Assembly (NCBI GenBank): GCA_949130485.1
Contig: OX422184.1
Location: forward strand, 7,234,655 to 7,298,654
Source of the DNA: Agelas oroides
Lineage: Eukaryota > Porifera > Demospongiae > Agelasida > Agelasidae
Length of the DNA: 64,000 nucleotides
Direction: 5' to 3'
The position numbers and the translations under genes were made by a program. Every line of letters begins with the position of its first letter. The first letter of the stretch is position 1. Under the pieces are notes generated by a model. That model worked only from the letters and a program-made list of their open reading frames with translations. It had not been told where the DNA came from and ran no database searches. Shown here in pieces: positions 7,030 to 63,101 of this stretch.

Positions 7030-8458
7030 AAGTAATGTCAGAGACGCGGGGTGTACAGCTTAGCATAGCTGTATGGATGTGCAGTTTTCCGTTGTGATCG
7101 ACGCAGTGTAACTGAGGGTGCTGGTTCGTATTCTTGGTTTGTGCTTTCCTCTTGGGTCTGCTTTTGCTCTTGTTCGTATCTCTCCTCTTCCTCGTCGCTT
7201 GATCCACCATCATCAAAGCCTGGTTCGGTCTGACGTTCACTATGTGTACGTGTTGGTCGGAGGTGTCGACGGTTTCTACGGTAAGTCTGGCCATCTGGAG
7301 TGATGATCAGGTATGATCTGGGAAGTTTGGTATTGGCCAAGATCGTGGCTGGCAGCCACAAGCGACCTTTTTGAAAGCTCACTGTGTCTCCTTGTTTTAG
7401 TGGTATGAGTGGCTGAGAGTGCTTGTCGTAGTGATACTTGGTTGGCCCGTTGTTTGGTAAGCTCTGACTGTACTTGCGACGGAGGAATAGTTTTTGGAAG
7501 GAGAAGTTTGTGTGCGGTAGGTAGCAGGGTTCGGGTGCGTCTTCCCATTAACCTTTGTACAGGGGATCCCAGCAGACTGTCTGTTGGTGTGTTGCGAAAC
7601 TCAAGCAAGGCAAGCTGGAAGTCACATTTTCCAGCTTGGGATTTGTGGAGGAGTTTGAACAGCTTTTTCAACTTTCCCGTTTGATTGGGGGTAGTGTGGG
7701 CTGCTAGGCTGGTGATCAAACTGGTACTGTATCAAGAACTGGTCGAATTGGTGGTTGGAGAACTGAGGGACGTTGTCTGATACGAGTATATTTGGTATTC
7801 CATGTCTTGCAAATTGGGACTTGCAAATTTCGATCACGTGTTCGCTAGTGGTTTGCCTTAGTCTGTCTGCTTCAATGAAGTTGGAGTAGTAATCCACCAT
7901 GATGAGATAGTGCTGCCCTTCAATGAAGTTGGAGCAGTAATCCACCATGATGAGATAGTGCTGCCCTTCAATGAAGTTGGAGCAGTAATCCACCATGATG
8001 AGATAGTGCTGCCCTTCAATGAAGTTGGAGTAGTAATCCACCATGATGAGATAGTGCTGCCCTTCAATGAAGTTGGAGTAGTAATCCACCATGATGAGAT
8101 AGTGCTGCCCTTCAAACTCACACAGGTCTATTCCAACTTTCTCCCATGGCCTTTCGGGTACGGGATGAGGTAGGAGGGGCTCCCTAGGATTGTTCCGCTT
8201 GTAGGTGGAGCAAGTAGTGCAATTGTTGATGAGGTCTTTGATCTCTGCATTCATTCCGGGCCAGAAGATAATATCTCGTGCTCGCCGTTTGCATCTGTCA
8301 ACTCCGAGGTGTGAAGTTTCAGCATGGTTGTGCGCATGGAGGTACAATGACTCTACTTCCTTTGAAAAGGATGCCGTGGTGGTAGGTGATCTCATCGCGG
8401 TAGCTCCAAAAGGGTTGAGCTCCAATTGGAACATTCGATTTCTTTTCTGGCCATCCAT
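7030..8458 (-). pseudogene. Gypsy integrase remnant with internal repeat expansion
   Basis: Shows the HHCC zinc-binding end (HNHAETSHLGVDRC...CTTC), the first catalytic Asp region (GIDLCEFEG), the second (VSDNVPQFS, with Val where Gly is usual) and the Glu region (PHYPQSNGKVEKA). A frameshift follows at about 7680 and another at about 7440, then a C-terminal GPY/F-like stretch (PRSYLIITPDGQTYRR) to 7038. Between the first and second catalytic blocks a 16-residue segment is repeated five times, which would disrupt the catalytic fold. Confidence 0.87.
7871..8117 (-). repeat. 48-bp tandem repeat x5 inside integrase
   Basis: Units begin at 7871, 7919, 7967, 8015 and 8063 and are nearly identical (one Tyr/Cys variant). 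Each encodes EGQHYLIMVDYYSNFI or its Cys variant and keeps the reading frame. This segment normally occurs once, around the first integrase catalytic strand. Confidence 0.97.
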
Positions 8459-8639
8459 TCTGGACAGTGTGTACGAGATCGGTGAGTGCCAGGTCTGCCT
8501 TTGTGCTCTGTTTGAATTCTTCCAGTTTGGCTTCAGTGATAGGTATTCAGGGTATGGAGGATGTTGATGTCGTACTCTTGGTACTCTAAATCATCTGCCA
8601 GGTCCGGGAGAGGTGATCTGGAGAGAGTGTCAGTGACAA

Positions 8640-9665
8640 GTAACTCCTTGCCGGGTTTATATGAGACCTGTATGGCGTATCTTTGAACAGACATGATCAT
8701 TCATTGGAGACGGGCAGGTGCAGCATGTATGGGTTTGCGTAGGATAGACTCAAGAGGTTTGTGGTCTGTCTCGACGGAAACGTGAGGTAGTTCATATATG
8801 TAGTCTTGCAATTTGTGGCATCCGAATACGATGGCGAGCATTTCTTTTTCTATTTGTGCATAATTCTGCTGTGCTGGTGTGAGAGACTTGGAGGCGTATG
8901 CTACGGGGTGGTCATCTTGGAGTAGGACTGCGCCCATACCTTTTGAGCTGGCGTCAACAGAGATTGTGGTTGGTTTTGATTGGTCAAAGTACTTGAGACT
9001 TGGGTGGTTTGTCGCCATGTCCTTCAGTTGGTTGAGGGCTTGCATTTGCTGTGTGTCCCAATGCCATTCAGTGTTCTTCTCAAGAAGGACCCTGAGGGGA
9101 GCCAAGATCTCGGAGTGGTTGGGGATAAACTTTGAGAGATAAGTTGCCATACCTAGGAATCTTTGGAGCTCCTCCTTGTTTGTGGGGCTTCTCATGTCTC
9201 TGATGGCTTGGACCTTTCTTGGGTCGGGTTTGATTCCTTGCTCACTTCTGTTTGATCTGGCTTTTATCCTTGTTCAGTTTGAGGTTTCGTGATTGGGCAC
9301 ATTGGAGTCTGGTGTCGTGTTCTTCCTCACTGGCTTTTATCCCACATGAGTATGTCATCTACGACGACTTCGACTCCTTCGATGTCCTCGAATATCTCGG
9401 ACATAATGGTTTGGAAGATGTCTTGTGCTGAGCAGATGCCGAAGGGTAGTCTTTTGAACATATATCGACCAAATGGGGTGTTGAATGTGCATAGTTTGCA
9501 GCTTTCACGGTCTAGTTTGACCTGCCAGAATCCAGAACTGGCATCGAGAACTGAGAAGTATTTGGCGTTGGGCATTCGAGCCACTATCTCTTCGACTGTT
9601 CTCATGGGGTAGTACTCACGTTTGATGGCTCTGTTTAGGTCACGGGGGTCTATGCAGATGCGGAG
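8640..9665 (-). pseudogene. Gypsy reverse transcriptase and RNase H remnants
   Basis: 9327-9665 holds the RT fingers/palm, including LPFGICSAQ and a VVVDDIL catalytic block. A stop and frame disruption follow at about 9200-9330. 8701-9195 then continues the thumb and the RNase H-like region (SVDASSKGMGAVL, YASKSLTPAQQNYAQIEKEM, ETDHKPLESI). A TGA at about 8698 breaks the frame again inside RNase H. Family assignment is secure; the reading frame is not functional. Confidence 0.87.
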
Positions 9666-11078
9666 TTACCCATTCTTCTTTATGACAGTCACCATGGAGT
9701 TGACCCAGTCAGTGGGTTCATACACTCGTTTGATCACATCCAGGCGTTCCATGCGTTCTAGCTCCTTCTTCACTTTTGACCGGATTGTTACTGGGACTTT
9801 TCGAGGTGGGTGGATTACAGGTTTGCAGTTCGGGCCCAGTTCAATGTGGTGTGTAACTTCGGTGATGCAACCAAGGCCATGGAAGGTGTCAGCGTATTGG
9901 TTCAGTGCGTCGTTTGTTAGCACTTCTATGCGTTTTATCAGCTGCATCTCTACGCAGGTGTGTATGTCAGACACGTTGTTAATGACCTCGAATTCGACTG
10001 GCCAGTACTTGCCTTTGTATTCGCATAGCAGGGTGGTCCTGCCAATGGAGTTGAGTCTGTATCCTCCGAATGCGACGAGTCTGGATTTGGAGCTGTGTAG
10101 TGGTTGTTGGCTCAGTTGGTGGTAGGTTTTTGATGACATTACGTTGCACTGAGCACCGGTGTCGATCTTGAACCTGGCGTTGTGTGAGTTTATTTTGATG
10201 GTGACATTCCAGTCCTTTTTGTTCTTTCCTTCGACGGTGGCAATTAGCATGTCATCTTCACTTGACTCATCTTGGTTGAGCTCTTGTATTTGTGGGGGCC
10301 TGGCTTGTGTTTTCAATCGGCATACTTTGGCAAAATGATTTCGACGGCCGCATTTACGACAGTTGACTCCATAGGCGGGACATCCTTGTTGAGGGTGGTG
10401 CCGCCCACCGCAGTAACCACATTGTGTTGATTTGGTTGGTTCTGCTTGTGGGTGTGGTTTGTTGGCAGTTCGGCGTTGCGTCCTCTTTACGAGCTCCACT
10501 TCTTTGTCATCAATATCGGTTGTTGTGTGTTGATTTGTTGCCGACATTAGTTTCATCTGGGTGGACGTGGCTTCGTCAGTATGGCATATATCTAGGGCTC
10601 CTGCCAGTGTGAGGTCTGCTTTCTTGAGTAAACGAGACCTTGTTTTGTCGTTGATGATACCGCACACGAAGCGGTCTCTTATTAGGCTTTCGGTGAGGTC
10701 CCCGAACTCGCATGTCTTGGCTTTGCCACGTAGATCTGTTACGTATTCGTCAATAGTTTCACCTGGTTTTTGGTTCTGTGTGTTGAATACGTGTCGTTCC
10801 CATGTGATGTTCTTTCGTGGGATGCAGTAAGCTTCAAATTTCTCTAGTAGCTTGTCTAGCTTCTGGGCGTCGCCCTCGTTCTCGAAGGTTAGCGTGTTGA
10901 ATACGTCCAGGGCGTCGGGCCCCGCGAGGTGAAGGAAAATGGCGGACTTGACCTCATCACTGGCAGCTGTCTTGCCCGTGGCCGTCATGTATATCGTGAA
11001 GCGTTGTTTCCATCTCCGCCATTTCTCGGCGAGGTTTCCGTGTAGTACAAGTGCCTCTGGTTGTTGAAGTTGTTCCAT
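9666..11078 (-). pseudogene. Gypsy gag-protease (5' part of polyprotein)
   Basis: The frame opens at ATG 11078, overlapping the end of the primer-binding site, and runs to a TAA at 9666-9668. In order it shows a gag/capsid region; two Cys/His clusters (CGYCGGRHHPQQGC and CRKCGRRNHFAKVC, the second a typical zinc knuckle); an aspartic protease site (IDTGAQCNVM); and the start of reverse transcriptase (HPPRKVPVTIRSKVKKEL...). The TAA interrupts RT where a lysine codon is expected, since homology resumes in the same frame immediately after it. Confidence 0.88.
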
Positions 11079-11094
11079 CCCACCTCTGACACCA

Positions 11095-11277
11095 TGTAAT
11101 GAGAGAACGTGCCGTATCTTTAATAATACATAATCAATCACTGCACACCAGTGTTGTTTTAGTATAGGGTTTGTGCTTTTAATTATTGCACACATATACA
11201 ACCATGAATAATATTATAACAGTTAATTGACAATGAGTAATAGTTAGTTAATGGATGTGATAGTTCCCATCATTACA
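11095..11277 (-). repeat. 5' LTR of the Gypsy element
   Basis: 183 bp, adjacent to the primer-binding site and gag start. It carries an internal insertion (around 11150-11192) absent from the partner LTR. Confidence 0.88.
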
Positions 11278-11650
11278 GGCGTCACCCCCACAAATGCACA
11301 TCACTGGAATCATCCGTCTTTCTACTTCCATCCAACGCAAGTCCGAGCTCCATAGCCCGTTGCGTTACTGTGGAGCTACAACTGCTCAAAGTACCGTCCT
11401 CCAGGTCATGTTAATCACGCTCTGGGTTTAACTCACTCTTGCTGCGAAGTTTTGACTCCCCAGCGCCACAGATACACAGGAGCAGTAGGGTCCCATCTCA
11501 ATTATCCGCAAACCAAGTATGATGCTCGTACATGTTCTAGTTCCCGTAGAAAAACGCACTTCGAGAGCCGTCGCCACGCTGATTTGCTAGCCATACGTGA
11601 CACGGAGTTCCGTGCACGCCCGTAAGCGTGTACCTCCTCTAGTCTGGAAC
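11278..11650. repeat. Inner arm and end of the inverted-arm repeat
   Basis: 11440-11575 is the reverse complement of 21896-22050 (shared ATGGGACCCTACTGCTCCTG and GTATCTGTGGCGCTGGGGAG). 11576-11650 is the TIR-like arm also seen at 5610 and 20314. This was the insertion target of the transposon at 11651. Confidence 0.7.
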
Positions 11651-11726
11651 TAGCCTCGTCCCAGGCCCCGCCCAAAAATTGGGGAAAGGGCCTGGTAACA
11701 CCTCCCGTATGTGCCGAGTCAGCATA
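11651..11726 (+). repeat. Left terminal inverted repeat of transposon copy A
   Basis: About 70 bp matching the right end in inverted orientation (19816-19886 plus 20307-20313 around a nested element). It contains the subterminal hairpin CCAGGCCCC...GGGGAAAGGGCCTGG. The right end has an 8-bp extra block (AAAAATTC region) before CCCGTATG. Confidence 0.88.
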
Positions 11727-11730
11727 TTAC

Positions 11731-11771
11731 CATAGATAATAGAGACTCGTTACGAGTCTCTATTATCTATG
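11731..11771. repeat. Perfect 41-bp palindrome
   Basis: Two 20-nt arms (CATAGATAATAGAGACTCGT and its exact complement) around a single T. It lies just inside the left end of copy A and is absent from the right end, so it is a later insertion or a hairpin-type mini-element. Confidence 0.95.
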
Positions 11772-11997
11772 ATATTACGCAACTCATCCTAATAATCACA
11801 TTCCAACGTCATAACGTTGCGTCGCGTGGCAAGTGAGCTATGGCGTCGCCGTCCTGCAGAGTGTGTGGAAAGTCCTTGCCAAGAAGTGATCAGAGGCGAG
11901 TCCTGGGAGGCGAAAGTAGCAGCTTATCAAGCGCAAATGCTACCGAGTTTCTGAAATTTGTGGGCACTTCTATAGTTGAGAGCGCTCATGGTTTGTA

Positions 11998-12439
11998 CAC
12001 TGTAAAAATTTTTGGGTTGTTTCAACCTGTTAAGGGTTGTCTGAGTTGCACACATGTACAGAGGAGTAATAATAATTCTATAAATATCACATTTCAAACA
12101 AATAAGCAATTTGTTCAACAAAATGTAAGAAATTAGCTTGCTTGGATGTGACATACCATATAAATGTGAACCACAATTGAGCAATTTGTTCAAGAAATTG
12201 GCATGTGACGTTACAAATTTGTTCCTTCCTATGTAATGTCACATCAAAGCATAGCTCGATTTCTTGAACAAATTGCTCAATTTGTCCTTACTATCTAGTA
12301 TGTCCTATCAAAGCAGGCTAATTATGTATAATTTGTTCAACAAATTTCTCAGTGATAGTTCAGCATTACTCCTACATACATGTGTGCAACTCAGACAACC
12401 CTATAAACTGGTTGAAACAACCCAAATTTTTTTACAGTG
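11998..12439. mobile_element. Tc1/mariner-type MITE in transposase exon 1
   Basis: 442 bp with long inverted repeats starting CACTGTAAAAA(A/T)TTT and a TA duplication on both sides (11996-11997, 12440-12441). Inner repeats of GAACAAATTGCTCAATTG also pair, so most of it can fold. It interrupts the coding sequence after SAHGL. Confidence 0.88.
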
Positions 12440-12617
12440 TATGCCGTCAACCATGCTTCGCTTCGCTGGAAAGGGACGCAAAAGTTTGCTTGGCCTCAAA
12501 AGCACCGTGAACACCCTGAGAGCTCAACTGAGTCTGACTCCTGTCAGCATAGCGATCACAGTTCTAAGTCAGGAACCGCCGAGTCTGCAGCTTGAAACTG
12601 CAGCTACCTCATCTTGC

Positions 12618-12800
12618 CCTATGGGTGGAGGTGATGCGGGTCCTGTGGGTGGAGGTCCTGTCGGTGGTGATATGGGTCCTGTCGGTGGAGGTGATACGGG
12701 CCTTGTGGATGGAGGTGATGCAGGTCCTGTGGATGGAGATGATACAGGTCCTGTGGATGGAAGTGATACAGAACCTATGGATGGAGGTGATGTGCATCCT
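12618..12800 (+). repeat. In-frame coding minisatellite in the transposase gene
   Basis: Degenerate units of about 24 bp encoding Gly/Asp/Pro-rich repeats (GGDAGPV-like, later DGDDTGPVD). They form a flexible acidic linker between the N-terminal Cys region and the body of the putative transposase. Confidence 0.85.
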
Positions 12801-13603
12801 GTGAATACGGGCGCTGCAGCTGGAGATGATATTGTTGGTGGAAGGTTTACACCAAGGCCTAAAGCAAAGAGGTCGCTTAGCTATGGAACTCCCCAAAGCA
12901 CAAAGAAGGCACTTCCACTAAAGGTACTCTATATTAAGAGTCAAGAAGTGTTAGATTTAGTAGTAGTGTGTACGTAATGTAACGGTAAGTGTATCCTTTT
13001 GTTGCAGGTGATCGTTGGCTCCCACAGAAAGACTTCAGTATATCGAGTGCGAACACCATACAAGAAGATTGTGAAATGCATCCGCTATAGGGATCCTAGC
13101 ATGCTTGCTCGCTCTGTGCTCAAAGTACCTGCATTAAGTGATGCAACCAAGAAAGAAGTCACAAAAATTGTGCGTAAAGAAAGTGCCCTATTGTGCACCA
13201 AAACATCTCTTTTGAGGGTAATGTCCATTGAAGACCTTCTGCGATTCAGATGGAGTACATTTGCAAGAGAAGCTGAGAAGCATGCACCAACCCTAACAGC
13301 AATTGTTGCTGCTATAGTGGAACCCACCACCAAGTTTCGTCGCAAGAGGCCGAGTAGACTAGCAGCAGTTGGAACAGGCCTGTCAATCCTCTTGCGTGAG
13401 AAATGTCACTCGTTATGCCTGCCACAGACATTGAACTCAGTTGCTATGTATGCAGGACATGCTCCTAAGCAGGTGAGTAGTCAACGCTCCAAATTTGGAA
13501 GTTGATTTATTTGCAGTTTTGGTGCTAATTAGCCTGGTTGTTTGGCCATTTAAGACAGAAGCTAACTTTTATTATCACACTGTAGCCCATTCCCAAACTG
13601 CAC

Positions 13604-14238
13604 TAGCCTCGTACCCAGGCCGTTAATTAGGAAAAACGGCCTGGCAACTTCTCCGAGTTCAAACTGTTGACTTCCGCTGCACTGGAGTTGTCAGTACCAA
13701 TCAGATTTCAGAACGCTTCACGTGACAGTTGTGCAGAATTTTAATTGCGTCATAAATGCATCACAGTATTAATATACCCGTCCCGTGGTACCGCTAGCGC
13801 TTGGAATGACGCTTTTGTTCGAACTCCTTCCGTTGACTTGTGTGCAACAACTACAGTGCCTGCGGACAAAACGGATTCTTTATGAAAAAGGACCAGTTCG
13901 AGAGTAGCAGTGTCAGGTACTAGTTTAGTACTTACTGTCAGTCGGACACATCGACATCGGTGAGCAAGAGCGAGTCTACTGCAAGCAGTTCGTCTACAGA
14001 TGACAAGTAAGACAGTAACCATCCAATATAAGCCTGTAACGAGTCTACTGGCAACAACAACGCGCTTGCACAATTACGAACAGTCACGTGGCTACGATTA
14101 AATATCACATGCATTATCCAATATTCATGGCTTGTATGGGTGCAGCTGTAATCTTTTTCACGTCACATCCGTATACAGTTTGAACCCGGGTAAGTTGCCA
14201 GGCCGTTTTTCCTAATTAACGGCCTGGGTACGAGGCTA
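13604..14238. mobile_element. Non-autonomous TAGCCTCG element in intron 3 of the transposase
   Basis: 635 bp. Inverted ends of about 60 bp (TAGCCTCGTACCCAGGCCGT...) with the hairpin CCAGGCCGTT/AACGGCCTGG. Perfect 9-bp duplication AAACTGCAC (13595-13603 and 14239-14247). It shares ends and duplication length with the host transposon but encodes no recognisable protein; a 107-codon minus frame inside has no domain. Confidence 0.93.
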
Positions 14239-16927
14239 AAACTGCACAGGAATGACCTATAGGAACGATGCTAAGTATATACTATGTTGTTTTTGTTCTG
14301 TTCTCATGTAGCTGTTTCGCAGATTTCAGGCCATTGGAGTTTGTTTATCGCACTTTAGAACGCTTAAGGCTGTCAAGAAGCTTGGAATTGACTATGACAA
14401 ACCTGTCAGGCAGTGGAAGAAAGCATTTGAACCAAAGCAAACATCAGGTGATCATTCCCGCGAATCTGCCATAAACTTGCTGCAAGAGTCGGTGGCTATG
14501 GTACATGATGATTCAGAGTGCAGTGACTCTGCTGTTGATGAATTGGATGAGGACAAACCAATGAACAGTGAGAGTGATGAGAGAGAATGGGAGGCAATGG
14601 AAGCTCACAAGACACTTGGATCCAGCACAGATGTGACACCTGACCCTGACAATCCCTTGTGTACCTACACCATTGTTGGTGACAATGTGGACAAAAACAT
14701 TAAACCAAGGGATATGCGAATGGACAAACAAGTAACATCAATGCATGCTTTTCACATGTATGCAACAAAAGACCGTGTGGATGCATCTAGCCTTCCTGAT
14801 GACAGACCTGTACGAGACCTTGAAGCCGTCCCCATTTCAACCTTTATGCCCTCAGTTGGTGACAGTATAGTTCTGCGAGAGAACTATGTTACCCTTGTCT
14901 CTAGAGTGCTGGTGAAGCATCTGAAATACTTCTCCTTTTTCACTAAGTGTGTTCCAGAACACATCGAACATGAACATTCAGCTGAAATGGCCAAGAAGTC
15001 TGAAATTGTAAGTATCACATTTAACTGCTGGTATTGATGCATTTAGTAGCTTGTTAGACTTCAATTGTTAATCTAAATTTCTCTATGTGTTAGGTACCAC
15101 TGGGTGTGCTGCTCAAGAACGAGAATGAAATAGATGGAATGGTCGACATAATGACTCACCTTCACAACTATGTCCCAAAGGCCAACATCCCAAGTGACAC
15201 AGAGAAGTTAATAACAATACCTTTCTGTGGAGACCAGCTTACGTGCTCAAGAGTAAGATCGTCCCAAGGTGTCCGTCGGACGTCTGATTCTCCATCAGAA
15301 GGCCTGATTGGCTTGACAGCTTATCCTGCTGATTGGCATGCAAAAATGAATGTGTATGAGGTAAGGTGGAGTAGGTACCTCTGACCCCACCAGAGGTTAC
15401 AAAAGGTGTAAATGAAGCTTTTCTGATACCTCAAGAAGGTGCAAATGAAGTGTACCAAACTCTTGACCATTGTTAATATGGAAAACTAGGTTTGACCAAT
15501 ATATTCAGTGTATGCATGCCTCATGCCAGTAATAAACAGGTGGTGGACTGAGATCTCTCTGATTGCTCAGTAAAAAAACCCACACTGCACATTTTTGAAG
15601 GTCTTATGAGTAATGTTATTTTACAAGTGGTGATTCATGATTAGGGCTTTTGCTATTTCCTTGCAACAGATTATGTGGAAGAGGCTGTTCCAAGGCACCT
15701 CTAGTGCTGAAAGTGGCACCATATTCCAGTTGAGAAACCTGATCTTCCGGCGAAACATTCACAAGGATGTGACGAAAAACATGAATGCTACTGAAGATTT
15801 TTTTGAGGCAATTGTCACCTGCTACATTATTGCAGCCGCAATGCATTTTTGTGCAATGCGATCCTCAAATGATACACCACAAGCGAATGCTTTTCCTGAA
15901 GACATTGTCCACAGGTCAGTACCCGAACGCACGAAATGTTTGCGAGACAAAGTTGCACAACTTGTTGACAGATATGTCCTTTTGTCAGATTTGTCTCCTC
16001 TTGTGCAAAGTGCCGAAGGCAGACCAAAAGAGCAAAACCAAGCACAAGGTATTCCTTCAAAAGAGTTTGCAACCTCAAGAAAGCGGCCCAGAGAGCACAT
16101 GGACAACCCTCATCTGCAAAGAATTGCCACTGACCACAGTTATATCAGTCAGCAGTTGGAACTCCCTACAAAGAGAAGGCGCCTTCCTGAATATCTTGCC
16201 AACCATTCAGACACACCCCATGCAAGTGACAAGCAGCAACGGTTAGCGCCTGATGGAGTTCTCAACTATTCATCTTCAGTTCTAATGCTGGAATTGAGAG
16301 ATGCCATACGAGAAGGTGATGGGCCACGAATCATTCGATGTTGGAAAATCATGATGATCTATTTTAAGTATGCAAATCATGCTAACTACGCACGGGAGGC
16401 GTTTCGAATGCTGGCAGGTGTGTACGCTCTTGGAACCCCTCGACTTGTACACCAGCTCATGTGGGCAAGGGTTGTAAACATACACAGAGGATTGGGCCAC
16501 AACATATCGCTTGACCTCCACATGGAGCACATGAACAAAAAATTGAGAATGTGTAGGAAGTTTGGGAGCAAATGTTTGTGAAAAAATCCTGGTTCAATCA
16601 GGGAAGTCACTTAAGGGAATTATGGACGTTTGCAACCACTTCAATGACATTTGTCAGCTTGAACCACTTTCCAGCCGTCACACCATCGCCAGCTCCATGA
16701 AGGACATTGACACAGTATTGCAAGAACTATTGAAGTCCAGGGTATTTGACTACATACCTGGACGGAAACAGAAATATTTTCCATCAATTAAGCCAAATGT
16801 GTTTCAGGAGATCAATGTCGAAAATTACATCAAGTATCTTGCAAGTCAGAAACGACAACTGAAAGCAGAATTAACTTATAGTAAGCTTCATGCTCAACCC
16901 TAACCATGACATACATCTTCGTTTTGA

Positions 16928-18678
16928 TTATTCTGTACACTTAATATCTTGAATAATGCTAAGAATGTATTCTGCAACACCTACTGATACAACACCCAAC
17001 TGTAACAAGTGTGATACACTTGCTATGGTAGCTGCCTGCTTTCCAATTTTTTTGATTAATGAATTGGGGAGGCATGTTACAATCTCCTTGCCAAACATAA
17101 GAGGAGTATCCTCACAAAGGGAGCCCCGATAATGAGTGACTTTCTCGATCACAGTTTGCTGCTGTGCCCCTGTAAGTACAGGATGTAGATTGTCAAGCTC
17201 TTTTGCTTCCAATTCAATGGGTGGGGTTGGTTTAGGTTGAACACAATCAGAGCATAAGCATGTACAAGTGCATACATCACAACAAAAGTGGGTAGGTTTA
17301 GGCTGGTCAAAATGGGGACTGTCTTCAAATGCACTCATCAGAAGTTTTCGTCGACAAACTGACTCATTGGTGCAGTAAATCCTCATTTCTTCAGAAATGA
17401 CATGACTACCATCCATCTTCTTTCGCGATAATTCTTTCTTTGAGTAGTATAAAATAGCGAAAAAAATTTTTCCATCACGTCCACACCTTCCTGATTCTTG
17501 CATATATGCATCTATGGAGTCTGAACAGCCCCAGTGTACACTGTAGCATATATTCGGTGCATTAACCCCCATACCAAATGCTATAGTAGCCACCAAAAAT
17601 CTTATTTTTCCATCTGGGCTTGCAAATGATTCCAGGATTTGGTCTTTGATCGATGTTGAAGTGCAAGCTGTATACATTTCGCAGAGGCGGTTCTGCACAG
17701 TTCGTTCAGCATCGGGCGGATCATACATGGAATTGTGCTGGAGCAAATGGGAAGCTACAAGGGAGTACACCTCATCACAAGCGGAGTATGTCGGACAGAA
17801 CGCAACACATGTATGGGCTTTGGTTTTTCGCTGGATCATGTCATTGAGGAAAGGTAGGAAAGCTACCACAGGTTCACTGGGTTTTTCATACACCTGATAG
17901 CATATGTTGACCCTGTTCGGGAGCTGGCATACAATCAAGTATTTGTCCTTCATGTTCAGATTGACCATAATATGTTCACGAGTACGAATGCTTGCAGTTG
18001 CTGTGAGTGCCATAATATTTGTATATGGTGGAATAATTGATCGGACTTCAGCAATGTTCGCATATTCTTGTCGAAACTCATGGCCCCTAAGTAAGTATAA
18101 AGATCTAACATCACAACATATTAAACAGTCAAATTATTGCAAACTCACCATTTCTCCACACAGTGAGCTTCATCAATTATCACTCCCACGAGATTTTCTT
18201 GGTACACAGTTGACTGCAACACTTGCCGCCAATGCAATAAGGTTAGCATTGACTCTGGGATGATGTAAACTAGCTGGCATTCTCCATTATTCACTCTTGC
18301 TACTGCATTGGCATCAATACTTACAAACTCACAGTTCAGTCCTCGAGAATTGAAGCAAGACACTTGATCTTTCATCAATGACAGTAATGGACTTACGATC
18401 ACTACAATGGATTGGCTCTGTGACTCACTGACTTCTCCACCGCTTCTGAGGGCATCAAACACCCAAGGAAGGCAAGCATAGCACAACGACTTGCCGCTAC
18501 CAGTAGGAAGGGAGACAAAAACATCTTTCCCTCTGACGAACGCAGTCACAGCGTCTTTCTGTTCCGTGGTAGGAGCATCATAGCCCAGCCTTCTAACTGC
18601 TGCTTTAACAGCAGCGTTAACATCCTCTAGCTTAGCTTCGATATCAAGTCGGGGAATCGTTACAACTTCCGACGCCAT
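16928..18678 (-). CDS. RecQ-like superfamily II DNA helicase of the transposon, copy A
   Basis: Two exons: 18149-18678 and 16928-18086 (GTGAGT donor, TTAG acceptor, split Trp codon), about 562 residues with no internal stop. Motifs in order: Q-motif-like TTEQKDAV, I LPTGSGKS, Ia SPLLSLMKDQ, II DEAHC, III ALTATA, IV CVAFCPT, V VATIAFGMGVNAPN, VI QESGRCGRDG, then a RecQ-type zinc region (CRRKLL ... HFCCDVC). The start was taken at 18678 (MASEVV); an in-frame ATG at 18777 would add 33 residues. It should be an ATP-dependent 3'-5' DNA unwinding enzyme acting with the convergent transposase gene. The intact frame, against a damaged partner, suggests a fairly recent insertion. Confidence 0.9.
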
Positions 18679-18794
18679 GATCGCTTCCACGCGGTACGCT
18701 GTAAGGAATGTTACTAGGGTGACACTTGGTGTCAATCCTCGCTCAGCTTGATCTTGTGCTCCAAAGTGACGTGTCATTGATTGAAATTCATTGC

Positions 18795-18839
18795 TAGCCT
18801 CGTACCAAGGCTCCTGGGAGGAGCCTGGGTACGAGGCTA
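18795..18839. mobile_element. 45-bp minimal TAGCCTCG element
   Basis: Consists of little more than the two ends (TAGCCTCGTACCAAGGCTCC and its near complement) and folds into one hairpin. Perfect 9-bp duplication ATTCATTGC at 18786-18794 and 18840-18848. Located just upstream of the helicase gene. Confidence 0.93.
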
Positions 18840-18867
18840 ATTCATTGCTTGAGTAATTTTGAAATTC

Positions 18868-19206
18868 AGTGAGCGAGTTATCAGATGCACCATGCAGATG
18901 AACTCAGGGGGTGAGATTGGACATGCTATTCAGCCTTGCACACACACATGCACCAATTGAGTGATAAGATAAAAGAAAATAAGTGATCATAATGTACAGT
19001 GAGTTATCAGACTGTACCATGTAGATGAACTCAGGGAGTGAGATTGGACATGATTCCGATATACACCAATTGAGTGGTAAGATAAATGAAAATAAGTGAT
19101 CATAATGTATAGTGAGTTATCAGACTGCACCATGCAGATAAACTCAGGGAGTGAGGTTGGACATGATTCAGGCTTGCACACACACATGCAACAATTGAGT
19201 GGTGAG
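18868..19206. repeat. Tandem repeat of about 115-130 bp (3 copies)
   Basis: Each unit contains GAGTTATCAGA, CACCATGCAGATGAACTCAG (variants), GTGAGATTGGACATG and AATAAGTGATCATAATGTA. Lies between the helicase gene and the right end of copy A. Confidence 0.9.
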
Positions 19207-19475
19207 ATACAGATGTAGAGTTATTTACATTTACCAGTGAAATGGTATTAAATCTTACCGTGAAATAAGGTAGTGAAGGCTTTTCTTTATTGCTTGGCTA
19301 CTCAATTCCATACCTTGTTGCATGCATGAAGCTGCCAGCTGCGCTGCGATGACACGTCGTGTGCACGTGCTATGGGATGGGCAACCATGGCAAGTACATG
19401 TAGATCTAGGACTATTATAGTCTACGAGCACTTGAAAAATAACACCTACTGAGCTGTAGCACTGAGCCAAAGCAG

Positions 19476-19740
19476 AGCTAAAGTATTTACCTACCCTACT
19501 AGCACGTACCAAGAGTTTGAAGCCAAACCGTTGCAGTAGAGAGCCACTAGAGCCACTAGTCCAAAAGTGTCCATGGACCACCACCAAAATCTCAATTGAA
19601 CGAGCTAAAGTATTTTAGCTACCCTACTAGCACGTACCAAGAGTTTGAAGCCAAACCGTTGCACTATAGAGCCACTACAGCCACTAGTCCAAAAGTGTCC
19701 GCCATTACCACCACCACCACCAAAATCTCAATTGAACCCG
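19476..19740. repeat. Tandem repeat of about 130 bp (2 copies)
   Basis: Two copies share CTACCCTACTAGCACGTACC, AAGAGTTTGAAGCCAAACCG and AAAATCTCAATTGAAC. A second subterminal tandem array inside copy A; function unknown. Confidence 0.88.
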
Positions 19741-19886
19741 ATTAGAACCTCGCTTCGCTCGGAATAATTGGCAATGGACGAACGTGATTCCTCTACTCCA
19801 AACGAAGACTGCTGACTCGGCACATACGGGAATTTTTGCAGGTGTTACCAGGCCCTTTCCCCAATTTTTGGGCGGGGCCTGGGGAC

Positions 19887-20301
19887 GTATGGCACGCCAC
19901 ACATAACAAAATTATGAAGTCGACTTCAACTTGGCAAGTCGTTATATTGCGGCTTGCCAAGTACGTCATCTTTACGTCATCTAATGTTCTATATTGGTGC
20001 GTTAAAGTCATAGTAATGTTGGTACGTTAAAGACAGTTCAGTGCACCGCAGTCGTCAGCAGTGGCTTGTAGCTGAATGGTTAGGGCCTAGTCTTACAGTT
20101 AGGGTTAGGGTTAGGGTTAGGGCCAGGGAATGGGGTTCTTCCCTTTTTTTTCTGTGGTACTTCCCTTCTTTTTTTTTTTCTGTGTTAAAATACCATGACA
20201 ACGTACTTGGCAAGTCGCAATATAACGACATGGAAGTCGCAATATAACAACTTGATAAGTTGAAGTCGACTTCATAATTTTGTTATGTGTGGCGTGCCAT
20301 A
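19887..20301. mobile_element. Foldback element with telomere-like repeats, nested in the right end of copy A
   Basis: 415 bp. Inverted ends TATGGCACGCCACACATAAC / AAAATTATGAAGTCGACTTC. Flanked by GGGAC (19882-19886 and 20302-20306). Excising it restores the end of copy A. It contains four TTAGGG units (20099-20122) and, at about 20069, TAGCTGAATGGTTAGGGC, which resembles a tRNA D-arm/A-box. Confidence 0.82.
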
Positions 20302-20313
20302 GGGACTAGGCTA

Positions 20314-20419
20314 GTCTGGAACCAGAGGAGGTTAGACACGCTTACGGACGTGCACGGAACTCCGTGTCACGTATGGTTAGTAAACATTGCCAGATCAGCG
20401 TGGCGACGGCTCTCGAAGT
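20314..20419 (+). repeat. Third copy of the inverted-arm repeat end
   Basis: Continues the repeat interrupted by copy A (GTGCACGGAACTCCGTGTCA ... GCGACGGCTCTCGAAG). It resumes at 21910 after the nested element. Confidence 0.75.
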
Positions 20420-35681: not shown

Positions 35682-37180
35682 AGGTTAGAAACCGCAGTGA
35701 GGTATCTACGTGTATTGGAAGTCCGAGGGCATAGCCCGAGGGCTTCCATACACGTAGATACCAAAACTAAGGTTTCTAACCTATTTAGACAAACTATTAG
35801 CATGCTTATACGACCAATCATATCTCTTGTATACATCATGTGACTAGCCTAGGTTGTGGCGCGTGTTGGTTCAGTTCTTGGCTTCATTCAGTTGGCTCGA
35901 GGATGATGGCGTCTGGGCTATGGGTCGGAGATGTACCTCCAGAGTTGGCGGAGGTGTCTGTGGGCGAACTCGCTTCCTTAGATGACGAGTCGTTTTGGAA
36001 GTTAGCAGCATCGCAAATCGATGACCATGAGTTCGATTCGTTCGACGTCGACGATGGGTGTTGGCGCGAAGCATCGCAGCAGACTGCAAGTATCGTGGAT
36101 GATGGCGAAGAAAAGAGCGCCTCATCTCGTTTTGCTAAACCCAAGACAATGGAAAATTTGCAACGAATTGTTGACAGTGCCGAACCGGCAAAGACAAAGA
36201 CAAGAAACTGGCCGTACGTACGTGGATAAGTCGGAGACTAGCCAGGATCCAAGCAGCACAACCAAACAATGAAATGTCACCAAGGTTGACAATGTCGAAG
36301 TCCGAACTGTGCAAATGGTTGTCGTTCTTTGTGGTGGAGGTGCGCAGGCAGGATAGTAAGCGCTATCCAGGAACCACATTGCACGGGATACTCTGTGGCA
36401 TTCAGCGCCATGTACAAAAGCAGAAGCCTAGAGAGACTATTGACTTTTTCAGCGATCCGGGGTTCAAGTTTCTGAGGGATGTTCTTGATGCACAAATGAA
36501 GGATCTGTGTTCGCATGGTGTCAGAAGTAGTAAGAAGCAAGCTGAACCTATCTCGGAGGAGGAAGAAAATCGTCTATGGGAGCTTGGACTTCTGGGCGAT
36601 CTGGATGCACAGACGTTACTGGATACAATAGTATGGATGTGTGGTCTGTATTTTGCATTACACAGTGGGGTGGAGCATCGGAACCTTCGTCCTGACCAGA
36701 TTAAGCAGTTTGAAGCCCCTGGCTCGCCTGCATACCTTCTGCACAACCAGTGATGCAGCCCCAAAGTTCTCCAGTGCAGCAACCTATCGTTCCACAGCAT
36801 CCAGTCCTTCCACAGCATCCAGTCCTGAATATTCAAGGTGTTCCTCAGTAGTTATCAACTATCGGTGAATTTGAAATTACCTGTGGGTGCATGGTCTTGA
36901 ACTTACCTGCTAGTAATGTGGTCATTTGAACTTACTGCATTCAAACGTACCTGCTGGTGATGTTGTAATTACTGCATTTGAGAAGTTGTGATGCTGTAAT
37001 TTGATACTGGCTGCTCATTACATTGTTTCCTCAAGTACCAATTTCCTGAGTTTAGATACCTGGTATGTGCTGTTAGATACCTGACATGTGCTGTTAGATA
37101 CCTGATGTGGTCTTGTGGCAGGTTTCTCATGGGTTTGGGTACTTCATTACTTCAAAGGGAATTATTCATAAGTATGTCTA
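35682..37180. mobile_element. Crypton-like element (partial)
   Basis: Starts with a 105-bp palindrome (GTTAGAAACC...GGTTTCTAAC, loop GGGCATAGCCCGAGGG). It carries a broken tyrosine-recombinase-like gene and ends with a block shared with 24741-24830. The true ends and duplication are not established. Confidence 0.6.
35903..36753 (+). pseudogene. Crypton/DUF3504-like recombinase gene, frameshifted and truncated
   Basis: Starts at ATG 35903 or 35906 (MASGLWVGDVPPELAEV). An acidic N-terminal region is followed by FAKPKTMENLQRIVDSAEP and KTRNW, typical of the DUF3504 (Crypton-derived, ZMYM/QRICH1-like) core-binding entry. A 1-nt loss at about 36209 shifts the frame. After it come WISRRLARIQAA, MSKSELCKWLSFFVVEVRR, GTTLHGILCGIQRH, QAEPISEEEENRLWELGLLG and FALHSGVEHRNLRPDQI. 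The frame then ends, before the distal catalytic HxxR/Tyr region, so the gene is doubly broken. Family call is strong; this is not a working enzyme. Confidence 0.85.
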
Positions 37181-41876: not shown

Positions 41877-42206
41877 ATGGCGAAAATTGTGATAGGAGTG
41901 AGGAAGGAAGAGTTAGGAGCCTGGCGCGAAAACGGAAGAGAAGACAGAGCGCAAATGCAGCCACAGCGCCGTGAAGTCCGCGTTGAGAACGATGAGTACG
42001 AGAGAGAGCAGCAGCAGCGCCTAGCGAAGCAAATAAAGTGCGTGGTCGTCTTGAGAAACGACCATATCTTCGCGTTCTGTGCGGTTCAAAAACGCGCTCA
42101 CATTCTCGAACTCTTTCAACGTTTTACGTACGCTTTGCCTTCCTTCTCACACTTTTTGCACTTCGTTGCACATGCATTAGTCTCGTCCCCAGACCCCACC
42201 CTCTAA
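41877..42206 (+). CDS. Hypothetical charged open frame (possible first exon)
   Basis: Starts at ATG 41877 and gives a charged, Arg/Glu/Gln-rich stretch (REEREQQQRL-like, about residues 38-58). It ends by reading into the MITE at 42178, whose TIR supplies the last residues SSPDPTL. No domain was recognised. It could be a first exon whose real end is earlier, or a transposon leader; I assign no function. Confidence 0.25.
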   Translation: MAKIVIGVRKEELGAWRENGREDRAQMQPQRREVRVENDEYEREQQQRLAKQIKCVVVLRNDHIFAFCAVQKRAHILELFQRFTYALPSFSHFLHFVAHALVSSPDPTL

Positions 42207-42500
42207 CGAGGAGAAACGGTCTGGTGAACCAAGTCGAATTTCTTGGGCTAGCGCACACTTTTGCGACAATGTAACCTAGCAACGATCAAAACATTTTGCG
42301 GCCAACCCGCTCAAAAAAGGTACGGATACTCGAATGGAGATGAACAAATTTTACTGTTGTAAGGGAAGTGCAACGTAATAATTACCGATCTCGCAATCTC
42401 ATTGGTCATTACCCGTTTTGGGTAATAAGCCCAAGAAATTCGACTTCGTTCACCAGACCGTTTCTCGCCGGGAGGCGCGCGCGGGCGGGGCACGAGACTA
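42178..42500. mobile_element. Non-autonomous TAGTCTCG element
   Basis: 323 bp. Ends TAGTCTCGTCCCCAGACC and, inverted, TAGTCTCGTGCCCCGCCCGC. Perfect 9-bp duplication CACATGCAT (42169-42177 and 42501-42509). The left hairpin is CCAGACC...GGTCTGG. Confidence 0.92.
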
Positions 42501-50490: not shown

Positions 50491-50783
50491 TAGTCTCGTG
50501 CCCAGACCCAACCCTCTCACGAGGAAAGGGTCTGGTGTCACAAGCCTGAATCCTTGGGCTTGCAGAAGTGTTGAAGCCTTGCAATTGTTAGTGTAGAATT
50601 ATCATAACACGCTTTGAGCGGTCTGATTGAAGTACTTGTTCTCGCTTCCGCATTATTCCAATAAACGCTGCTCTGCAACTTCATTGGCCGCTCCAAGCTT
50701 CTGGAGCTAGCCCAAGCATTCCAACTTGTGACACCAGGCCCCTTCTCCTCGCGTGAGCTGGGTGGGGTCTGGGCACGAGACTA
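50491..50783. mobile_element. Non-autonomous TAGTCTCG element
   Basis: 293 bp. Ends TAGTCTCGTGCCCAGACCC on both sides. Perfect 9-bp duplication CCCCTGTCC (50482-50490, 50784-50792). Arms continue with TGTCACAAG...CTTGGGCT. Non-coding. Confidence 0.93.
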
Positions 50784-58380: not shown

Positions 58381-58705
58381 CCCCGGCCCCCCGCTTCCGT
58401 CGCCTATATATGCTTAGCTGAAGTACACTGAAGTACACGTCGGTGTGGATATTCAATCATCGTGAAATGTGCTCATTTAAAATTTACGGTAAGTGGTCGG
58501 TCCAACGCGTGGGGGTTCACTAGCCTCGTCCCCAGGCTCTCTCCTCAAAAACGGGGGGGAGGAGAGAGCCTGGTAACATCCGCGGCAAAAGCTGTCGACT
58601 TCCGGCGCGTCATCATTCATGTGATCAACCAAGGACACTCCCACTTTAGTAATAGATGTCATGTGATTTAATAATCTGTCGTGTATTGAGCGAGCAAGCT
58701 GCAAG

Positions 58706-60124
58706 ATGCAGAGTGTTGAGGGAGCAATATCTTACGGAACAAAGCGACTATCGATCGAGCAGTTGAACGGCAAGCAAAGAGAGGCGGTGGTGAGTTTTGT
58801 GGAAGGGAAGGACGTGTTTGTGAGTCTACCAACGGGCTTCGGGAAGTCAATCTGTTTCCAGATCTTGCCGTTTGTTCTAGACTATATGAACAGTCCATCA
58901 CCTGGTAGTTGACAAGTACATCGCGTTGATAGTCGAGCCCACGGCTGCCATCATGCGTGATCAAGTATCAAGACTGCTGTCCGTCGGTATATCAGCCGCT
59001 TTTATAAACCACGAGCAGAACGACACCAACATAAAGCAGGCTGTTGTGCAAGGAAAATACAAGTTTGTGTATATATCCCCGGAATCGCTGTCACTTCCAA
59101 GATTCAGGGAGATGCTGTATTCAGACCGGTACCAAGAAAAGCTTGCTGTGTTTGCTGTTGATGAAGCACACTGTATTCTAAGTTGGTAAGTCATACCGGC
59201 TGCATGAAGTTCGTACAGTAGCTCTTATTTCGGTATAGGACTTAGCCTTCAGTTTATATTTACATAAGCTAATTTGTATCTGGTTTCAGGGCCAACTTCC
59301 AGAAGTTTCAGCAGCTAGGAGAAATACGTGCTGTTGTCAGTGCAAGGGCAATGGCATTGACAGCCACATGCACAAAAGAGAACCAACATGCGATCATGGC
59401 TGACTTGTGCATGAATGATGCTGTCATTATCACACATAGTGCTGATCGGCCCAACATTTTCTTTCAGGTGCAAGAAATGCCTGGTAATTTTGATCAGTGG
59501 ATGTCGTTCTTGGAAGATGATGTTGAAGTAGTAAAAACACTGGGTATTACAGTTGACAGGAAAATCATCTACTGTCGTTCGATTGAAATGGCATGTCAGC
59601 TATATGAGTACTACGACGAGCTGTTGGAAGAAAGTGCCTATCATGACCCAAATGGTAACCTAGTACCATCAAATAGAATTATTGCCATGTTTCATTCTGA
59701 TTCGGCACCATCTGTCAAGACTGCAGTGACTGCTAGCTTAGCTGATCCAAATGGGATTGTACGACTTGTGTTTGCAACACAATCACTAAGTATGGGGATT
59801 CACTGCCTCAACATAAGAGAAGTAATACATTGGGGTGTGCCAAGAACACTTGAAGATTACTATCAAGAATGTGGTCGGGCTGGACGAGATAACTTGCCTG
59901 CAAGGGCAACTTTGTTGTTTGCAGCTCGTCAGCTGTCAGAGTCTTTCTGTAATACATCTGTTATCGAGTATTGTACTAGTGCAGTATGTCATCGCAGAAA
60001 ACTCCTTACATACTTTCAGTGTACTGATTATAATATCACTCCCTGTTTGCCTAATGTCTGTTGTAATGTATGCCATCCCAAACATTCCACAAATAGAGCA
60101 TTAATGATCAATATTAATAAGTGA
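58706..60124 (+). pseudogene. RecQ-like helicase of the transposon, copy B
   Basis: Exons 58706-59185 and 59290-60124 (donor GTAAGT, acceptor TTTCAG, the same split-Trp intron position as copy A). Motifs: I LPTGFGKS, Ia VEPTAAIMRDQ, II DEAHC, III ALTATC, IV KIIYCRS, V FATQSLSMGIHCLN, VI QECGRAGRD, then a zinc region CHRRKLL...CCNVC. A single-nucleotide shift at about 58906 breaks the frame between motifs I and Ia. It is shorter than copy A after the zinc region. Otherwise open, so decay is mild or the shift is a sequencing error. Confidence 0.86.
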
Positions 60125-60203
60125 TAATGACATTAATCCCATTCATCTATGATAGTCATACTACTGTGAGGATTCACTTGCATGTGTAGCAGTTTCATGC
60201 TGA

Positions 60204-62690
60204 TTATGCTGTGATCGCTTCAATTCTTTGTTCTGAGTTTTTGAAAGTTTGTATCCATTTTTCAAACTTTTTCTTGTCAATACTGTTGAGGTGGTTCCGA
60301 GAAAATGATGGGAAATTGAAATGAGATCCTTCTGCTCCAAATACTTTGTACTTGCTGTAGAGTGCTTCGACCATTGTATTTTCATCTTTTGTTGAACTCT
60401 TTGTAGTATGGTGGACTGCTTGTGGTGAGATGTTCGTGACTTTATCAAACCTGTCAATAGCCTCATTCAGTGTTGAGAGGGCCATTCCAGTGCAGATAAT
60501 AGTTGATGAAGCAACATTTCCTCCAGCAGTAGCCAAGTGCTGCTTGAATGCACGATTCCAGTGTTCCATTCCAAGGTCACAGGAAATGTTCTTCCCTGGT
60601 TTGTATTAATGAAACGGCACCACTTCAGACGATGCGCACCTCGCTCAGTCAACAATGCTGATGCTTCAGCAATCAGTCTAACACTCTCTGCTGCATAGTT
60701 GGTATGCCCAGTAGTTCTGAAATGTAGTAACAGTAGCTTCCAAATAGTAAGCATTCGTTCTCCATCTCCTTCATGGACAGCATCATTGAATTCTTCTACA
60801 AGTAGCAAATCTGCCATAAATGAACAGGCATAGTTGTGAATGCCATGCCTGCTAGCATCTGAATCTTGAGTTGTGTTTTTTGTGGAGCTGAGATCAAACA
60901 GGAGGGATGGCATCACATACTCATCTACAAATTTACCTATCGTGGTGGACAGGTATTGCCAATGTGGTGCTGTAGACTGTGTCATAGATAAAAGGTGAGG
61001 CCATGCATGCTTAATTGGTTTCTCATTTTATCTTGCATACCAAAATAGTGCATTGCTGCTGCTGTCACGTGAGCTTTGGCAACAGAATGGAACAAATCTT
61101 CTAGCTCATTCATCTCCTTTGACACGTCCTTCGAGATGTTATGACGCTTGATGAGACATCGTAGGTGCCAAAGAGTTCCACCATCAGTTATTGATTTGCC
61201 ATTGAAGTATCGGTTAAAGATAACCTTCAAAAAAGGAAAATGCATATGATAGTACATGTAGTATTTTCAAAGTCAACAGTGACACATAATTATACATTCG
61301 TTATCTATGATTGGTTTTAAGTAAATTTGTCAGCAGTTTCAGTGAACTTGTTAATTAGATAAAAGCAAGGCAATACCATCAGCATACGTACCTCAAAGAG
61401 GCACATCTTTGTATGCCAATCTTCAATAACTGGCAGCAAACCTTCCAGCCTCTCAACAGCAGTAGCTGAATCTTGTCGATGACGTTTTGCACTTCTGGCT
61501 CGTGCACAGGTCAGCTGGTCACCACCAAACAAGTAATTCACCGCAATGTCTCTTGAAGAACCAACAGACTTGGTTGGAACGTATTGGTGTAAGTTCTCCA
61601 TGATTTCAATCATTTCACCATTGATGTTCTCGTTCTTGAGAATCACACCAAGTGGGAGCTGTAACTGGAAACATTAACACTATCACAAAATGCTGCATGG
61701 TAGTTACTGCTATAAAATAGTTGTAGTAACCTACCACGACTGATGACTGAGCCATTTCTCTTGAGTATTCATGTAGAATGTGATCTGGTACAGCTTCAGA
61801 CATGAACTGGAATGCAGACAACTCAGCCACAACAATGCGAGACACTAAAACTATCAAGTCGCTGCGCAATCGTTTGTAGTCAGAGCTTGATAGAACAAAA
61901 TCAGAAGTGCTGAGGTTACTTACAAGCTGCTGTGGCCTTGAGTCATTAAGATGTGCAGTTCTTACTCGGTCTTGAACTGCAATGGTGTGGAAGAAGTGAT
62001 ACTGCTGATTTGGGTTGTCAAGGCGCATATCTCGGACTTTGATTGTAAGGTCAAGATTATCTCCCACCAGCTTCCAATTTTTCTCCACCAGTGTTGTACC
62101 TGAGTAAGTTTTAAACCATATAAGTCAAAATGAATTACTACTGTCAGAGGGTAAGTAACAGCACCTGTGTCTGAAGGGGAAGTGTTGTCCTGATCTTGTG
62201 AGGACTGGCTTGAACAATCGGATGGCACACTTGAAGTCACCTCATCAACATTGCTTGCCATGTCATCTTGTGTGGAAGAGGTGGTGATAGCATTTACTTC
62301 AGGCTTTTCTCTTCAGTGGATGATTTCCACCTCCTAAGCAGTACGTCATGATTTCCTGCCAGCCTGTCAATTACTCTCAGTGTATGTTGGTGTGAAAGGC
62401 AAATTCCCAGCTTGTTGAGGCGAGTATAAGTCTGTAAAAAGATGTGATTAAAATGTAGTAAAACACGTATTAGTGCATGTACGTCATACCTGAGAGCTAA
62501 CATGTCCAGCATTCAGGACTAGTGAAATCATAGTCTGAACAGCTGATAACTGCTTGTTTCGGGACTTCAGCAAAATGGCAGCAGCCATGCCAAGAGCAGG
62601 AACACACTTTGGAGAAGGAGATTCTGCCTTTCTAGTCCACTGCCTATCAGCAGCTGGCACAAGGACAGCATGCTCAGGTGTGTTAAGGAC
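60204..62690 (-). pseudogene. DUF6589-like putative transposase, copy B
   Basis: Exon-like blocks (minus): 62490-62690, about 62165-62431, 61735-62099, 61392-61664 and 60204-61224, with intron positions mostly matching copy A. Conserved blocks: VGDNLDLTIKVRDMR, GGDQLTCARARS, LPVIEDWHTKM, MNELEDLFHSVAKAHVTAAA, HEGDGERM, NISCDLGMEHWNR, and a C-terminal KKKFEKWIQTF. At least three 1-nt shifts (about 62300, 61035 and 60600), mostly in short homopolymers. An element inserted at 62691 cuts its 5' part. Confidence 0.78.
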
Positions 62691-63101
62691 TAGTCTCGTG
62701 CCCAGACAACTTTTCGCCGAGCGGGAAAGTAGTCTGGTGAACTGCCTACACCGTTTTGGTTCCAATATTTTGAAACTACCGTGACATCACGTCAACTGGA
62801 TTGTAAATTCAAAAGCGCTCTAGTAAACAGCAAACTCCTAGACAGCCTACTCGTGCTCCTTTCGATAGATACAATAGCCTAGTCTACTCACGGCAGCTAG
62901 GGTTGCCCGATCAATGTCCATTTCGCTAGTAGATCGTTGGCACGCAATGTGGAATGCAATCTTCGATGACGTCAAGCATTAAATTAGAAAAGAACAATGC
63001 GCCAGCATTCCGGCGCACTTGAACGAAAACGGAATAGGCAGTTCACCAGACCCTTTTTTCCGGCGGGCGCGCGCGAAAAATGCGGTCTGGGAACGAGACT
63101 A
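62691..63101. mobile_element. Non-autonomous TAGTCTCG element inside copy B
   Basis: 411 bp. Ends TAGTCTCGTGCCCAGAC and, inverted, TAGTCTCGTTCCCAGACC. Perfect 9-bp duplication GTTAAGGAC (62682-62690, 63102-63110). Each end has a CCAGAC...GTCTGG hairpin followed by TGAAC(T)GCC. Read on the minus strand, the right end gives TSLVPRPHF. Confidence 0.94.

Follow-up and report, generated by a model that had tools for sequence, protein, structure and literature searches.

A probable AcademH-type DNA transposon with convergent DUF6589 transposase and RecQ-like helicase genes and covarying subterminal sequences in the sponge Agelas oroides

Genes of the element

We analyzed a 64,000-nucleotide stretch of the Agelas oroides genome (contig OX422184.1; hereafter the window), in which positions 11651-20313 hold a transposon that encodes a DUF6589 protein, probably a DDE-type transposase, and a RecQ-like superfamily 2 (SF2) helicase. 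An original prediction made from the sequence alone had described two convergent spliced genes at this locus, and this is what is found, with the transposase stop at 16901-16903 (plus strand) and the helicase stop at 16930-16928 (minus strand), 24 bp apart.

Exon 1 of the transposase gene (11840-12923, plus strand) encodes a Cys-containing N-terminus and a Gly/Asp-rich repeat stretch, and is interrupted by a miniature inverted-repeat transposable element (MITE); its counterpart in a second copy of the transposon (L009, see below) is uninterrupted. The next coding exon is called exon 3, with no claim to an exon 2, and is an open frame between splice-like sites (13008-13472). Exon 4 (14312-15007) contains a GDNVD motif, exon 5 (15094-15360) GDQLT and exon 6 (15670-16903) DLHMEHMN. 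The predicted DUF6589-like transposase is borne out by Pfam, which matched PF20231 above the curated cut-off in two exons (E 9e-12 in exon 5 and 2.4e-17 in exon 6). Pfam annotates this family as of unknown function, and the name DUF6589 was not found in the literature searched.

The transposase frame is broken. Relative to L009, exon 1 carries the MITE and differs in length by a further 2 bp, and exon 6, aligned with L009 and its duplicate L010, has a 2-bp deletion near 16542. Because of this deletion, the downstream part of the originally predicted 14312-16903 product, including the stop at 16901-16903, lies in another frame. The L009 transposase has other lesions of its own. By eye, database protein P0123 is near-identical to exon 6 of L009, and P0002 to its helicase exon 2, with source contigs of equal size; exon 6 is unbroken in P0123, and thus less damaged copies exist.

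Exon 6 alone, used as query, gave 90 relatives, and no match was obtained in the protein search with joined exons 3-6. Columns invariant in 53 of the 90 relatives include a D, an EGD and a D...EH-N motif. The motifs GDN(V/L)D, GDQLT and DLx(M/N)EHxN occur together in both window elements (the second is described below) and in L009, L010, L125, L126, L130, L132 and L134; L129 has the first motif alone, and L123, L124, L127, L128, L131, L133 and L135 have none by these patterns. The acidic residues of GDN(V/L)D, GDQLT and DLxMEHxN are candidate catalytic residues. AlphaFold modelled exon 6 of the relative P0124 (pLDDT 81) as mainly helical, with two short strands directly before the conserved MEHxN helix. 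Scans of viral and genome contig collections with a sequence pattern (A1) returned 8 and 100 pattern matches, respectively, and no relative among them.

The helicase gene, in contrast to the transposase gene, has an open frame both here and in L009. Exon 1 (18149-18678, minus strand, start codon 18678-18676) encodes the DEAD/DEAH domain, and exon 2 (16928-18086, minus strand) the Helicase_C and RecQ zinc-binding domains and the stop, together 562 amino acids without an internal stop. Pfam matches are to DEAD (PF00270, E 3.9e-18), Helicase_C (PF00271, 3.6e-13) and RecQ_Zn_bind (1.8e-5), in line with the open RecQ-type frame of the original prediction. Ratios of nonsynonymous to synonymous substitution rates (dN/dS) between the window copy and L009 are 0.32 in the helicase; in the transposase they are 0.08 in exon 3, 0.33 in exon 4, 0.18 in exon 5 and 0.10 in the core of exon 6. 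Thus, purifying selection acted on both proteins during the spread of the element.

The best-scoring named relatives of the helicase come from a sponge, then from corals and a mussel. In a tree of 47 chosen sequences (45 of the 120 listed database matches plus two genome copies, with an arbitrary root), 31 sequences including that of the window are set apart from 16 classical RecQ sequences with a support of 100/100, so that the comparison with RecQ helicases called for by the original prediction gave a separate clade. Names within it include Ephydatia, Oculina, Porites, Paramuricea and Mytilus; those on the classical side include bacterial, plant, fungal and other RecQ proteins. Source contigs of 3664690, 3205 and 2920 bp are common to the match lists of helicase and transposase, a hint that the two genes travel together elsewhere too. 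The third case is weak, since P0039, from the 2920-bp contig, groups with the classical RecQs.

Termini, target-site duplication and empty sites

The element is bounded by terminal inverted repeats (TIRs) with TAGCC ends. The left TIR (11651-11724, plus strand; left end TAGCCTCGTCCCAGGCCCC) pairs with 19810-19883, part of a right TIR (19810-20313, minus strand) that is divided by a nested MITE. Read inward, the right end is TAGCCTAGTCCC, followed by the MITE (19887-20301) and the remaining TIR. Inner arms 11660-11703 and 19840-19883 (44 nt) and arms 11703-11724 and 19810-19831 (22 nt) each match at 100%. Directly outside lies the target-site duplication (TSD), with GTCTGGAAC at 11642-11650 and, letter for letter, at 20314-20322. 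The matching ends and perfect 9-bp duplication of the original prediction are thus present as described.

Together the flanks make up a palindrome that recurs at other places in the genome, and paralogous empty sites could thus be obtained. These are diverged paralogues rather than alleles. Two, which are probably copies of one another (L137, C2:12851870-12852110, and L138, C2:13086790-13087030), are 81-82% identical and align over the joined flanks without a gap at the insertion point. Their length there is therefore that of one 9-bp unit, one copy of the duplication, with only 4 of the 9 bases equal to GTCTGGAAC. A third paralogue (L136, on C18; 83-84%) is 8 bp shorter at this point. The empty sites sought in the original prediction thus agree with the borders in length, and L137 and L138 give no different ones.

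The transposon sits in the middle of a palindrome formed by two abutting TIRs of about 97 bp that belong to another transposon (11558-11650 and 20323-20419) and elsewhere are found paired at distances of about 2.5-2.9 kb. As the flanks are inverted repeats of each other, we examined insertion at palindrome or hairpin tips. The insertion-site set comprised 66 sites, or 64 distinct exact-TSD insertions after removal of repeats, excluding the window element (52 of 80 anchored loci had no exact-TSD element in the stretch taken). Flank pairing per position was about that of shuffled partners, and the idea was rejected. There is a weak excess of long pairing runs, on which we do not build (5 of 64 sites with at least four consecutive pairs near the TSD, versus 1.4 in shuffles, 38 of 3000 of which reach that number). 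The target itself has a weak dyad, with C at -3 in 41 of 64 sites, G at +3 in 33 of 64 and C at TSD position 9 in 36 of 60.

A second copy and nested insertions

Approximately 6 Mb away, L009 (C2:13500207-13506313) holds both genes within like ends, has not one of the nested insertions, and is duplicated close by as L010, which contains a run of N. Thus, the core element is about 6.1 kb, and most of the other sequence in the 8.7 kb of 11651-20313 consists of nested insertions. Copies whose two genes do not share the same TIRs had been named as evidence to the contrary, and in L009 the genes do share them.

The nested sequences include a palindromic insertion of about 48 bp (11730-11777) that L009 is without, and the MITE in transposase exon 1 (11998-12437), with CACTGTAAAAA ends and TA flanks, missing in both L009 and L010. 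An intronic 635-bp TAGCC-ended non-autonomous element lies at 13604-14238 (TSD AAACTGCAC). Upstream of the helicase start is a repeat of about 1.05 kb (18711-19763), which L009 is without and of which L004-L008 are other copies; it contains a 45-bp TAGCC palindrome (18795-18839, TSD ATTCATTGC). The MITE in the right TIR has GGGAC flanks. The element had been called complete, a description that fits its ends, and fails for its coding state, given the broken transposase, and for its length, given the nested insertions. The copy at 11651-20313 is dead or dying.

Convergent gene pairs in the genome

A second, diverged AcademH-like element (58521-63101 and beyond) lies in the same window, about 38 kb from the first. 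Its left end with hairpin (58521-58573, plus strand; 15-bp stem, z -4.83) is followed by a helicase gene (58708-60124, plus strand; Helicase_C E 2.5e-9) that is frame-shifted near 58900 and, convergent to it, by a DUF6589 transposase gene (60204 to about 62650, minus strand; PF20231 E 1e-17), both genes also being detected by tblastn. A search for its right end, extended to about position 68346 in window coordinates, found none. The helicase intron interrupts the same codon as in the first element, and judged by match starts this position recurs in L125, L126, L130 and L132.

The host genome (259 Mb in 141 contigs) contains at least 118 DUF6589 matches, with none in 14 control genomes, and at least 96 helicase matches. 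Clustered by strand with gaps below 4 kb, they form 83 DUF6589 and 56 helicase clusters, and clusters within 6 kb of each other were counted as pairs. A helicase lies within this distance of 36 of the 83 DUF6589 clusters, and all 36 pairs are convergent, with none divergent and none in tandem. Direct tblastn of the 12 best DUF6589 loci placed a convergent helicase at 11 of them, 5 of which are outside the 36. Not all of these pairs are independent, as L125/L126, L127/L128 and L131/L133 appear to be duplicates. Three DUF6589 matches (C2:19766780, C17:3662260 and C18:6756821) have equal scores, each lies in a frame of 1913 amino acids and no helicase was detected near them; these loci are probably recent copies of another DUF6589 lineage.

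Related ends and subterminal pairing

Ends related to those of the element are abundant in this genome. Allowing at most two mismatches, we counted 22,761 occurrences of TAGCCTCGTACCCAGGC on one strand and 23,655 on the other (about 46,400), versus 2 and 6 for the reversed control. For the 635-bp family, 30 loci were taken of 40 full-length copies scored, the window's own copy among them; 24 have exact 9-bp TSDs, 3 exact 10-bp TSDs, 2 a TSD with one mismatch and 1 none. Also present in the window are short elements with TAGTC ends and exact 9-bp TSDs at 42178-42500 (CACATGCAT), 50491-50783 (CCCCTGTCC) and 62691-63101 (GTTAAGGAC); they form a family that is sister to the TAGCC elements and has A-T instead of G-C at stem position 5.

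The left end of 11651-20313 can fold into a subterminal hairpin (11661-11695, plus strand; stem 11661-11668/11688-11695) of -12.6 kcal/mol, with a z-score of -3.2 and 0 of 200 shuffles as good. Many families share a common layout of their ends: an 11-nt lead (TAGYCTCGTNC), CCAGRC, a variable stem, a loop, and an arm ending in GYCTGG, with about 20 to 53 nt from arm to arm. By folding, the stem begins at nucleotide 12, or at 11 in the window element, where one base is missing. Folding z-scores range from -0.98 to -4.83 over eight strands; one element contributes two of these, its ends being identical, and the L009 strand was cut with flank included. Rfam gave 0 matches in the window.

At family ends the stem sequence varies while pairing is preserved. 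At stem positions 5, 7 and 8, pairs form in 30, 33 and 25 of 39 distinct ends, versus 20.8, 20.3 and 13.2 in shuffles, none of 2000 of which attains the observed pairing at these positions; position 8 is represented by four pair types. Of 65 distinct long ends, the other 26 lacked a CTGG arm in range and are outside this set, in which the window's end is anchored one base off. The arms were picked for good pairing, and therefore a separate test, of 20 distinct ends, repeats the search anew each time in its controls. These ends were drawn from 49 long elements, of which 48 had been identified through their TSDs and one, the window element, was added by hand. At least 8 of 10 positions pair with the end's own downstream sequence in 16 of the 20 distinct ends of exact-TSD long elements, compared with 31.8% for cross-family and 3% for shuffled sequence; both tests treat families without regard to their relatedness.

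Short palindromes

Of 80 loci anchored on the exact terminus, 34 belong to elements of only 32-68 bp, hereafter minis. Flanking repeats are exact over 9 bp in 14 of the 34 and over 8 bp in 6, have one or two mismatches in 7 and more in the remaining 7. Genome-wide there are 284 minis with perfect 17-bp arms (34-64 bp allowed), with a control of 0, and 321 by a looser pattern (24-54 bp allowed). The shortest among 50 listed of the 321 is 32 bp, though 24 bp was allowed, and this floor may possibly be a minimum protected length of the ends. By eye, 6 of these 50 are the same 45-mer that is carried by the 1.05-kb repeat. Among 50 mini sequences listed of the 284, 47 differ by eye, some by a single base, and thus the minis look made in place. 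A long element's end is matched at 0.75 or better by 8 of 39 distinct minis, one of which (L110) is an artefact that matches its own neighbourhood. Most minis are probably what is left of longer elements that became shorter at their original sites. A simple route would be a deletion from the GCCTGG of the left hairpin to its repeat in the right TIR, as when gap repair is aborted.

Proposed mechanism and alternatives

We consider it likely that 11651-20313 is a cut-and-paste DNA transposon of AcademH type whose convergent genes encode a DUF6589 transposase, probably DDE, and a RecQ-like SF2 helicase that acts at the ends or in repair. The transposase would cut at TAGCC and join the ends, with a 9-bp stagger, to a weakly symmetric target; the helicase would open hairpin-bearing ends or unwind DNA during strand transfer or gap repair; and thousands of short TAGCC elements would be mobilised in trans. 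This role of the helicase, which we infer, would make the two genes travel together. Several observations weigh against this scheme. The two flanks of L009 do not match as a TSD, and 47 of the 83 DUF6589 clusters have no helicase within 6 kb, although 5 of these have one by tblastn. The P0124 exon 6 model had no PDB match at E <= 0.001 by Foldseek, so that an RNase H fold is only inferred, and assignment to AcademH is based on published descriptions of its traits. The helicase could instead be a passenger, a RecQ gene captured from the host long ago that has no part in movement, as might be suggested by the 42 of 83 DUF6589 clusters that lack a nearby helicase by both cluster count and tblastn, by 20 of 56 helicase clusters without DUF6589 nearby (some with long frames, perhaps host RecQs) and by the short TAGCC elements, which move without carrying a helicase. 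This we regard as improbable, since the order is convergent in every one of the 36 pairs, the helicase remains open in both copies in which the transposase is broken, its dN/dS is 0.32, its clade is separate from classical RecQs, and non-autonomous copies can use a helicase in trans. Membership of a different superfamily with a helicase, KolobokH or Helitron, is more improbable by far. Kolobok TSDs are TTAA, unlike GTCTGGAAC with its 9 bp, and Pfam gave DUF6589 rather than Helitron_like_N or PIF1. In their favour, an excerpt of PMC10799480 lists them as other transposons that carry a helicase.

How the ends are recognised is a more speculative matter. Tentatively, and with considerable doubt, we propose that they are read as DNA hairpins, with an 11-nt lead and a freely changing paired stem, and that the element's own RecQ helicase opens the DNA so that the hairpins form and are cut. 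There is a substantial chance, somewhat short of even, that the paired sequences are instead palindromic double-stranded binding sites of a dimeric transposase and that no hairpins form. There is hardly any variation in the outer CCAGRC/GYCTGG core, as expected of a protein site; speaking for hairpins are the variable distance between the arms and the stem bases beyond the core, which vary in concert beyond all shuffles. Should the ends indeed be read as hairpins, we would have in a eukaryote a DDE-type cut-and-paste transposon whose ends are recognised by their structure, and the tiny palindromes would be scars of that process. The palindromes might also be tiny elements that transpose as such, given the exact 8- or 9-bp repeats around 20 of 34, the excess of 284 over a control of 0, and the few listed minis that are one base apart, with three pairs identical. 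A spreading mini-element should have left many identical copies, however, and with 47 of the 50 listed (of 284) distinct, we think independent transposition unlikely and retain shortening in place as their main origin.

Other features of the window

Just upstream of the transposon, on the minus strand at 7622-11210, are open frames with matches to integrase, RNase H and aspartyl protease (the last below cut-off), predicted to represent a long terminal repeat (LTR)-type retroelement. An open frame at 36175-36750 has QRICH1 and DUF3504 domains.

Comparison with known systems

AcademH is reportedly a lineage of the Academ superfamily distinguished by Kojima in 2020. In the excerpts of citing papers on which our comparison is based, AcademH elements are given TSDs of 9 or 10 bp, a length suggested to go with the helicase (PMC10045372), and helicase domains Helicase_C and DEAD (PMC10799480). 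The window element has a TSD of this length and an SF2 helicase with both domains, and here and in L009 both genes lie within one TIR pair. These traits support its placement in the helicase-bearing Academ lineage, as originally predicted, with DUF6589 as the putative Academ transposase. AcademX, of the same superfamily, differs in that it has a TSD of 3-4 bp and a nuclease in place of the helicase (PMC10045372, likewise an excerpt), whereas no nuclease family is among the Pfam matches here.

Compared with the RecQ helicases BLM, RecQ1, RecQ5 and WRN, the window helicase is alike in the DEAH, motif VI and zinc-binding regions, with BLM its best PDB match by sequence (1.4e-43). Unlike them, it gave no RQC or HRDC match in the Pfam search, and it falls outside the classical RecQ clade.

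Convergent gene order and covarying end hairpins are described here from the Agelas oroides genome alone, and none of the titles and abstract openings in the literature searched reports such hairpin ends. Convergent transposase-helicase pairs number in the dozens in this genome, related ends in the tens of thousands and short remnants in the hundreds. Hairpins that covary at the ends provide a concrete, testable reason for a helicase in a cut-and-paste transposon. DUF6589, in Pfam a family of unassigned function, is here linked to a transposon whose target duplication has been measured and tied to the structure of its ends.

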